Origin: Pseudomonadota bacterium
GTDB lineage: Bacteria > Pseudomonadota > Gammaproteobacteria > Burkholderiales > Burkholderiaceae_C
Assembly (NCBI GenBank): GCA_018241325.1
Contig: JAFEEB010000027.1
Span: 1 to 55,773 of the forward strand
Direction: 5' to 3'
DNA: 55,773 nucleotides
In this document: piece after piece, positions 2,636 to 4,987 of the stretch
How the letters are laid out: every line of letters starts with the position of its first letter
Numbering within the stretch: position 1 is the first letter of the stretch
Program-made: the position numbers and the translations under genes
Notes under the pieces: generated by a model
Databases searched by the model: none
What the model saw: the letters and a program-made list of their open reading frames with translations, nothing else
What the model was told of the DNA's origin: nothing

Positions 2636-4987
2636 CTACGCCTTCAGATAATCCGCCCGCGCACCCAGCCAGCGCTCGACGTGGCGCGCCGCCAGTTCGG
2701 GGTAGCGCGCCAGCATCTGCGGCGCCGCGGCGCGCGCCCATTGCAGCAGGGCGCTGTCCTCGGCCAGGTCGGCAAAGCGCAGCAGGGCGTCGCCGCTCTG
2801 GCGCGCGCCCAGAAACTCGCCGGGGCCGCGGATGTCCAGGTCGCGCCGGGCGATCTCGAAGCCGTCACTGGTCTCCAGCATGGCCTTCAGGCGCGCGCGC
2901 GCCGTCTCGCCCAGGCGGCCGCCTTCGGGCACGCTGTACAGCAGCACGCAGGCCGACGCTGCCGCGCCGCGGCCCACGCGCCCGCGCAGCTGATGCAATT
3001 GGGAGAGGCCAAAGCGCTCGGCGTGCTCGATCACCATCACGCTGGCGTTGGGCACGTCCACGCCCACCTCGATCACGGTGGTGCTGACCAGCACGCCGAT
3101 GCGACCGGCGACGAAATCGGCCATCACGGCTTTCTTTTCGGCCGGCGGCAGACGCGCGTGCAGCAGGCCGATGGTGGCCTCGGGCAAGGCCGCGCAGAGC
3201 TCTTCATGCGTCTGGCTGGCGTGGCGCAAGTCCAGCGCCTCGCTTTCCTCGATCAGCGGGCACACCCAGTAGGCCTGCCGGCCCTCGGCGATCTGCGCGC
3301 GCAGGCGCTCGACCAATTCATCGCGGCGGTGCTCGGCCAGCAGCTTGGTGACGATGGGCGTGCGCCCGGGCGGCAGTTCGTCCAGCGTGGAGACGTCCAG
3401 GTCGGCGTAGTAGCTCATGGCCAGGGTGCGCGGGATGGGGGTGGCGCTCATCATCAGCAGATGGGGCTCTATGGCTCCCTCCCCCTCTGGGGCTGAAGGC
3501 CGCGGCTCCGCTTGCACCAGTGCGCAAGAGGACGGCCTGAAGGGCGGCGGCGTCTCGCCGCCAGCACCGAGGTTTGGATGGGGGCCTGCCGCCGTCACAT
3601 CGTGAACCGCCGCGCCCCCACCCCTGCCCTCCCCCAGCTGGGGAGGGGGCAATCCCCAGGCCTTTTGCCGCAAGGCCAGGCGCTGCGCCACGCCAAAGCG
3701 GTGCTGCTCGTCGATGATGGCCAGGCCCAGGCGCGCGAACTGCACCTGCGCCTGGATGACGGCATGCGTGCCGATGACCAGCGCCGCCGCGCCGCTCTCG
3801 ATGGCGGCCAGCATGGGCGTGCGCTCTTTCTTCTTCTGGCTGCCAGTCAGCCACGCCACGCACTGGCCACGCGCCGCCAGCAAGGGGGTGAGCCAGTCGG
3901 CCAGCTTGGCGAAGTGCTGCTCGGCCAGGATCTCGGTGGGCGCCATCAGCGCGCACTGCCAGCCGGCGTCGATGGCCACGCAGGCGGCCAGCGCCGCCAC
4001 CACCGTCTTGCCGCTGCCCACGTCGCCCTGCAGCAGGCGGTGCATGGGCTGGGTGCGCGCCAGGTCGGTGGCGATTTCCTCGCCCACGCGGCGCTGCGCG
4101 CCGGTCAAATCGAAGGGCAGCGCGGCCAGCAGCTGCTCGGGCAGGCCGCCGCGCGCCGCGTGCAGGGCCGGCGCCCGCAGGCGGGCGCGCTCGGCACGCG
4201 CCTGATGCTGCGACAGCTGTTGCGCCAGCAGCTCCTCGGCCTTCAGGCGCTGCCAGGCCGGGTGGCTGTGGTCTTGCAGTTCGCCCAGCGTCGAGTTGGC
4301 CGCTGGGTGGTGCAAAAATGTGAGCGCCTGGCGCAAGTCCCACGCGCGCAAGGCATCGATTTGGCTTGAAAACTCCTCGGGGACGGTGGCGCTCAGGTCG
4401 GCCTGCGCCAGACCGGTCTGCACGGCCTTGCGCAGATAGGGCTGGGGCAGCTGCGCCACCGTCGAATAAACCGGCGTGAGCGCCCCCGGCAAGGCGCCGC
4501 CGGCCGCGTGCACCGTGGGGTGCATCATCGTCAGGCCGAACAACGGGCCCCCACGCTCCTGCGCTGCGCGCGATCCGCTGCCCCCCAAGGGGGCGCCTTG
4601 GCCCTTGGGGCGGCCCGGCGGTCCAAGGCCGCCGCGCAACTCGCCCCGAAAGCGCAGACGCGCGCCCACCGCCATCTGCTTGAGCTGCGAGGGGTAGAAA
4701 TTGAAAAAGCGCAGCAGGCAGCGCTCGCCGCCGTCTTCCACCGTCACCAGCAATTGCCGGCGCGGGCGGTACGCCACCTCCTGGTGCACCACGGTGGCCT
4801 CGAACTGCACCGGTTCGCCTTCCATCGTGCGCGCGGCCTCGGCCAGCGGGGTCAGGCGCGTCTCGTCCTCGTAGCGCAGCGGCAGGTGCAGCGCCAGGTC
4901 GATGGGGCGCACCAGGCCCAGCTTGCGCAGCGCCTTTTGCGGGGCGGACAGCGGCTGGGGCGCGGCAGGGGCCGGGGCGTCGGGCAT
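2636..4987 (-). CDS. recG: ATP-dependent DNA helicase RecG carrying two in-frame repeat insertions
   Basis: 783 residues, about 90 more than usual for RecG. The protein remodels stalled replication forks and Holliday junctions. It has the N-terminal wedge/OB region, Walker A GDVGSGKT near residue 322, the DEQH box (IIDEQHRFGVAQR) near 424, motif III MMSATPIPRTLA, and a normal C-terminal helicase half (LVSTTVIEVGVDVPNAS, RGRVGR). The excess length is in two blocks: about residues 119–148, between GELRGG and FGLTMMHP, and about 445–507, between ALRQKAWG and PHLLMMSATP. Both blocks are Gly/Pro-rich, unlike RecG, and their DNA matches intergenic repeats of this window. Neither breaks the frame. 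The start at 4987 is 81 bp from the divergent queA start. Whether the protein still works cannot be told from sequence. Confidence 0.93.
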   Translation of the reverse strand: MPDAPAPAAPQPLSAPQKALRKLGLVRPIDLALHLPLRYEDETRLTPLAEAARTMEGEPVQFEATVVHQEVAYRPRRQLLVTVEDGGERCLLRFFNFYPSQLKQMAVGARLRFRGELRGGLGPPGRPKGQGAPLGGSGSRAAQERGGPLFGLTMMHPTVHAAGGALPGALTPVYSTVAQLPQPYLRKAVQTGLAQADLSATVPEEFSSQIDALRAWDLRQALTFLHHPAANSTLGELQDHSHPAWQRLKAEELLAQQLSQHQARAERARLRAPALHAARGGLPEQLLAALPFDLTGAQRRVGEEIATDLARTQPMHRLLQGDVGSGKTVVAALAACVAIDAGWQCALMAPTEILAEQHFAKLADWLTPLLAARGQCVAWLTGSQKKKERTPMLAAIESGAAALVIGTHAVIQAQVQFARLGLAIIDEQHRFGVAQRLALRQKAWGLPPPQLGEGRGGGAAVHDVTAAGPHPNLGAGGETPPPFRPSSCALVQAEPRPSAPEGEGAIEPHLLMMSATPIPRTLAMSYYADLDVSTLDELPPGRTPIVTKLLAEHRRDELVERLRAQIAEGRQAYWVCPLIEESEALDLRHASQTHEELCAALPEATIGLLHARLPPAEKKAVMADFVAGRIGVLVSTTVIEVGVDVPNASVMVIEHAERFGLSQLHQLRGRVGRGAAASACVLLYSVPEGGRLGETARARLKAMLETSDGFEIARRDLDIRGPGEFLGARQSGDALLRFADLAEDSALLQWARAAAPQMLARYPELAARHVERWLGARADYLKA
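3467..3652 (-). repeat. Repeat sequence inserted in frame within recG (second block)
   Basis: About 186 bp (62 codons) that splits ALRQKAWG from PHLLMMSATPIPRTLA, which are separated by only about ten residues in E. coli RecG. It contains CCCCCACCCCTGCCCTCCCC and CCCAGCTGGGGAGGGGG, nearly the same as the palindromic element next to oxyR (about 409–446), and GGCGGCGTCTCGCCGCC, another palindrome. The edges are estimated to within a few codons. Confidence 0.8.
4544..4630 (-). repeat. Repeat sequence inserted in frame within recG (first block)
   Basis: About 87–93 bp (roughly 30 codons) between GELRGG and FGLTMMHP in the wedge/OB region. On the plus strand it reads CCCCCACGCTCCTGCGCTGC…, then CCCCCCAAGGGGGCGCC and GGGGCGGCCCGGCGG. 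Both the CCCCCA..CTCC…GCGCTGCGC opening and the internal CCCCC/GGGGG palindrome resemble the R1 intergenic element. The boundaries are approximate. Confidence 0.7.

Follow-up and report, generated by a model that had tools for sequence, protein, structure and literature searches.

The recG gene of this Burkholderiaceae_C bacterium, whose genus is probably Ottowia, raises the question of how a helicase gene comes to hold two blocks of repeat DNA within its reading frame and of what this does to the protein. The gene lies in the window, that is, the whole stretch of 55,773 nucleotides analysed here. In the best explanation, to which a probability of roughly 0.78 is given, mobile structured repeats enter transcription units, only the frame-preserving copies in permissive loops survive, and RecG is likely still active.

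The product of the gene has the wedge domain, the helicase motifs, and the RecG fold. A preliminary description had proposed two in-frame insertions made of intergenic-type repeats, and this is borne out: both blocks keep the reading frame, are free of stops, and match repeats of the same genome (51 own-genome matches at E<=0.01 for the insert-1 block and 47 for the insert-2 block). The sizes first given, about 30 and 62 codons, hold for the first insert and are too high for the second (Table 1). The distance between motifs II and III is 261 nt in the window recG versus 87 nt as the commonest value among the stretches read. A codon-usage model built from 26 ORFs of the window calls positions 3461-3655 inside recG non-coding and leaves insert 1 unflagged. 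On the solved 693-aa RecG 9wm0, the insert sites correspond to residues 122|124 and 414|419; this alignment and the AlphaFold2 model agree with the placement proposed at the outset.

Table 1. Coordinates of recG, of its two inserts, and of the associated repeats in the window
Feature	Position	Strand	Remarks
recG ORF	2636..4987	minus	783 aa; phmmer matches to 9wm0 and 1gm5
Insert 1	4544..4627	minus	28 codons, residues 121-148, after RGELRGG, in the wedge domain
F1 copy in insert 1	4547..4628	minus	75-nt core and left arm; own-genome matches, profile match, and arm pairing
Insert 2 region	3463..3658	minus	from motif II (DEQH) to motif III (SATP); about 58 extra codons; borders approximate
F2 inside insert 2	3607..3651	minus	F2 profile match, E 1.9e-11
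Weak F2 remnant, inverted, at the opposite end of insert 2	3474..3497	plus	F2 profile match, E 0.004
Composite repeat of 178 nt	3474..3651	minus	85% identity to C40:40683-40861
Additional F2 copy in the window	401..446	minus	in a stretch called non-coding

The distribution of insert 1 was followed in 80 RecG loci fetched from named genomes, 73 of them with a usable protein. At most 4 of these 73 proteins fill the positions of residues 121-148 of the window RecG, and the insert is absent from all 69 homologue rows printed. None was seen in the 30 readable stretches among 40 from other genomes, and its pattern was not found in the remaining 10. In the nearest of the 59 other genomes searched, G025, about 90% identical, the insert-1 site is empty, with a net difference of 84 nt, i.e., 28 codons. 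Insert 1 as a native linker or domain is refuted by this empty site. For the two blocks together, an origin as native linkers or domains of the lineage is extremely improbable: the II-III loop is indeed long in several genera, but insert 1 is missing from so close a relative and both blocks match genome repeats. On the best reading of the sequences, insert 1 was probably acquired after the split from G025, the nearest sampled relative. The expected absence from relatives holds for insert 1; the site of insert 2 is variable across the family.

The repeat in insert 1 belongs to a family, F1, with a core of 75 nt that reaches about 85 nt with its left arm. Twelve genomes of the genus contain from 7 to 73 matches each at E<=1e-8. 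At E<=1e-15, the family is present in 28 of 60 genomes, namely 24 of 29 from the genus (the own genome included), 4 of 7 from other genera of the family, and 0 of 24 from other families. Plasmids of Burkholderia, Paraburkholderia, and Azoarcus carry matches that are weaker or partial, and in an annotated plasmid of Rhodoferax antarcticus F1 lies inside a Fic-family gene. Copies may stand in tandem, with start-to-start spacings of, e.g., 87, 87, and 84 nt. F1 has copy-specific self-complementary arms: across 40 copies, the left arm pairs with a variable stretch inside the core at a mean of 7.15 of 10 positions, versus 5.38 of 10 when arms are swapped, and 0 of 5000 shuffles reached the real value. 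These 40 copies have 38 distinct left arms, and some copies pair poorly. RNAalifold, run on a MAFFT alignment of F1, did not recover the outer stem and found little covariation. We attribute this to misalignment of arms of unequal length, and the in-register swap test was relied on for that reason.

Rfam gave only two chance-level listings at insert 1, far below the gathering threshold, and no match in four F1 loci. By eye, the hallmarks of a MITE, terminal inverted repeats and a target duplication of constant size, were not evident in the flanks of the copies or in five empty-site comparisons; a direct repeat of roughly 20 bp flanks F1 in GcvP only. A stop-free design of F1 was considered and rejected, as 5.57 of 6 frames are open and 5.45 are expected from composition. 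Same-strand coding segments contain or flank 48 of the 50 own copies, the other two being one divergent and one edge copy, and they do so for all 56 copies of the genus loci. Convergent or divergent gaps are almost free of F1 (1/50 own copies and 0/56 genus copies), while F2, the family found in insert 2, has 8 convergent copies.

The proposed search for other genes with the same insert showed recG to be one of 27 named hosts in this genome. The codon-usage model was applied to the loci around repeat copies. By an automatic rule, 31 of the 50 own F1 copies lie inside one open in-frame ORF, 12 lie between same-strand segments in different frames, 3 have a stop between, and 4 are at an edge; random 75-nt windows from the same loci fell in coding sequence in 274 of 350 cases. 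Five of the 12 different-frame cases were checked. Two different genes flank each of them, and no frame-breaking intragenic F1 copy was present among these five. By hand, 33 F1 copies were assigned to the 27 hosts named by NCBIfam or Pfam. Repair and helicase proteins are represented by RecG, RadA, UvrD, UvrA at C88, a long UvrA at C40, and HrpA. PEP carboxylase, thiolase, GcvP, a GlcD-like oxidase, and acetaldehyde dehydrogenase are hosts as well, and several copies are found in an acyl-CoA synthetase (three) and in a nitrilase-type amidase, a copper P-type ATPase, a MurU-like transferase, and GlnE (two each). Further hosts are YbbP, Mpl, a histidine phosphatase, a molybdenum hydroxylase, two RND permeases, an acyl-CoA dehydrogenase, a nitronate monooxygenase, a FemAB-like protein, MetX, and CobQ. 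In 26 of the 27, the family match spans the insert or comes in at least two stretches; the histidine phosphatase is matched on one side only. Locus ends cut some of the ORFs.

Empty sites are not confined to recG. The inserts of RadA, UvrD, thiolase, and GcvP are missing in all four genomes searched (G025, G023, G008, and G017). That of PEP carboxylase is common to G025 and absent in G008 and G017, and no match was returned for G023. In 30 loci from other genomes of the genus, the same rule, with the window-trained model, placed 25 of 56 copies in frame, and 15 of 18 ORFs scanned from these genomes match a protein family at E<=1e-40. In GlnE (L222, L237, and L238) and CobQ (L110, L256, and L257), which also bear F1 there, the match is broken at the same profile positions as in the own genome, through either shared ancestry or repeated insertion.

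The composition of the host list raises the possibility that the inserts are kept as useful, the repeats being favoured in DNA-repair and helicase genes and tuning them. Among the 27 hosts there are five repair genes (recG, radA, uvrD, and two uvrA), and the chance of at least this many is 0.0002-0.001 if a background share of 2-3% is assumed. RecG, UvrD, HrpA, and the long UvrA have F2-type sequence and F1 elsewhere in the same gene, as judged by eye from the translations, and other genomes of the genus have RecJ (two copies) and, in G022 and G025, HolB (L231 and L232) as hosts. A repair bias of intragenic REPs is already described (PMC3733652). However, the majority of hosts are metabolic or transport proteins with no relation to repair, and NTPases that are long and multidomain present many loops anyway. 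Usefulness is considered unlikely.

Insert 2 is of a more composite nature. The partner of its 178-nt repeat lies inside the long UvrA ORF in the other orientation, and F2-type copies of the own genome are mostly within non-coding calls. The long UvrA-like gene (L120 and L090, at C40) contains F1 as well as several stretches of F2 type, and its two pieces are separated by a run of N. Insert 2 is an insertion, as the preliminary description had it, but its site is not a one-off in the family. Of 101 stretches examined (the own one, others from the genus and the family, and five from other families), 98 had a readable II-III segment; the 60 family genomes followed the order of the list among 150 searched, and genomes lacking a listed match were passed over. 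In 33 of the 98, the segment exceeds 110 nt or matches a repeat model. Thirteen of these have a recognisable F1 or F2, and the other 20 loops are longer than 110 nt without such a match. F1 was found in the loop of G007, G031, G069, G107, G118, and G121, and F2 in that of G000, G003, G008, G010, G023, G034 (weak, E 0.006), and G106. At the insert-2 site, G008, G010, and G023 have two inverted F2 repeats that form a shorter pair. In G025, both contig ends fall within F2, and near one of them is a TAG that we regard as doubtful sequence. In G003 (L173), the II-III distance is 203 nt, not a multiple of three, and contains F2; this is either a frame-breaking insertion or a sequencing error. The loop is present in Acidovorax soli DSM 25157 and absent from A. 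soli S00198.

A RecG tree (103 rows, 181 columns, with a bootstrap that had not settled) was labelled with carriers and non-carriers, L002 being labelled F1 from its translation. The labels require 12 changes, six for F1 and six for F2, of which the well-supported branches force at least 5 for F1, at least 4 for F2, and at least 9 overall; these counts take gains and losses together. A single origin of F1 at this loop, as one clade, is rejected (p-AU 0.00013). Because 33 of 98 genomes vary at the site and 13 have a recognisable F1 or F2, the II-III loop is a recurrent landing place.

Since repeats break assemblies and this genome is in 93 contigs, an assembly artefact has to be weighed as well. 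G025 contigs end at the insert-2 site and the long UvrA has its run of N, but separate assemblies, including the single-contig G023 and G031, show F1 or F2 at this place in RecG, and the frame is kept across both junctions of the window gene. An artefact is therefore very unlikely.

As regards the protein, an AlphaFold2 model built with 55 sequences keeps the RecG fold with a mean pLDDT of 83.2, the core being mostly above 90. Segments below 50 are 123-132, 134-149, 452-498, 723-728, and 730-733; the prediction that both inserts would be modelled as disordered loops is confirmed. In the model, insert 1 connects strands 110-118 and 152-155, and insert 2 connects helix 432-443 and strand 509-514. 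It had also been suggested that RecG might be impaired; the inserts would then mark a decaying gene. The location of insert 2 between motifs II and III, the broken frame in the G003 loop, and the TAG of G025 could be read in this sense. Conversely, the frame and the motifs of the window protein are preserved, as are the columns that do not vary among 55 RecGs, loop length varies in many genomes, and dN/dS versus G025, inserts excluded, is 0.19, a pairwise value that partly predates insert 1. Impairment is thus not favoured and appears improbable, and most likely, to judge from the sequence, RecG retains activity.

The preferred reading, survival of frame-preserving copies in permissive loops, can be outlined as follows. 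F1 and F2 would be two short-repeat families mobile now or recently in the genus, as suggested by empty sites and copy numbers. F1 would enter transcription units; where its length is a multiple of three inside a protein loop, it would be kept and translated as a Gly/Pro/Ala-rich disordered loop, and selection would presumably purge frame-breaking insertions. One F1 would have lodged at the tip of the wedge-domain hairpin of RecG, and F2-containing DNA, partly older, in the loop between motifs II and III, which would be so permissive that F1 and F2 entered it repeatedly across the family. A bolder version, improbable at present, would make F1, spreading through transcription units with its copy-specific arms, a natural loop-inserting device that adds disordered segments time after time at the same permissive sites (the RecG II-III loop and perhaps sites in GlnE and CobQ). 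Proteins of repair and replication would be its preferred hosts, and genome maintenance would thereby evolve jointly with the hairpin DNA that its proteins process.

Phenomena of this kind are known from Rickettsia RPEs, intragenic REPs, and some BREs. The BRE (Beta-proteobacterial repeat element; Hot et al. 2011, PMC3110155) is described, in the part of the paper drawn on here, as 75-91 bp long, arranged in tandem runs a few bases apart, with Comamonadaceae among its hosts, and in some cases wholly intra-CDS. F1 resembles this published description in size range, close tandem copies, and intragenic copies; that part of the account gives no frame, host genes, or copy-specific arms. Intragenic GTAG/CGTC REPs are in frame, many in genes of DNA synthesis and repair; their dimers add 20-30 aa, and in two species of Xanthomonas recB was struck at nearly the same position (Di Nocera et al. 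2013, PMC3733652, as far as the sections consulted go). F1 is similar in being in frame and in having repair genes among its hosts. In contrast, REPs measure 20-40 bp and F1 at least 75 nt, the aligned F1 copies share no conserved end of GTAG or CGTC type, and recG is not named as a host in those sections (PMC3733652). The REP/RAYT arrangement, with copies flanking a Y1_Tnp gene, was not seen for F1 or F2; Y1_Tnp as a mobiliser was rejected, as the genome has a single copy, whose 3.3-kb locus gave no significant match to either F1 or F2. Rickettsia RPEs are palindromic and in frame in likely functional genes, some twice per gene, according to the same sections (PMC3733652). By that description F1 is alike in lying inside ORFs with the frame kept (31 of 50 copies), although RPEs belong to another bacterial class than the F1 host. 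No earlier report of in-frame repeats in RecG or Ottowia was found in searches of an open-access library, and what looks new is the scale, together with the repeated use of the RecG loop.

The window contains other elements too. Its sole gathering match to Rfam is RF02837 anti-hemB RNA at 39953-40042 (+), with 61.8 bits. Another repeat family, of GCAGAGGACGC type, occupies 14811-14865/14934-14988, 24137-24188/24268-24319, and 35385-35431, in two cases as inverted pairs spaced by 68-79 nt. A repeat of about 70-115 nt, its copies 71-89% alike and in both orientations, is found at 21466-21580, 33355-33469, 1542-1613, and 55016-55087.

This lineage offers dozens of in-frame inserts, several with empty sites in close relatives, and such paired alleles would let neutral, harmful, or useful inserts be told apart. 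The copy-specific arms hint at the way in which these repeats move, and the RecG loop maps, by natural variation, the places at which a helicase can accommodate extra sequence.
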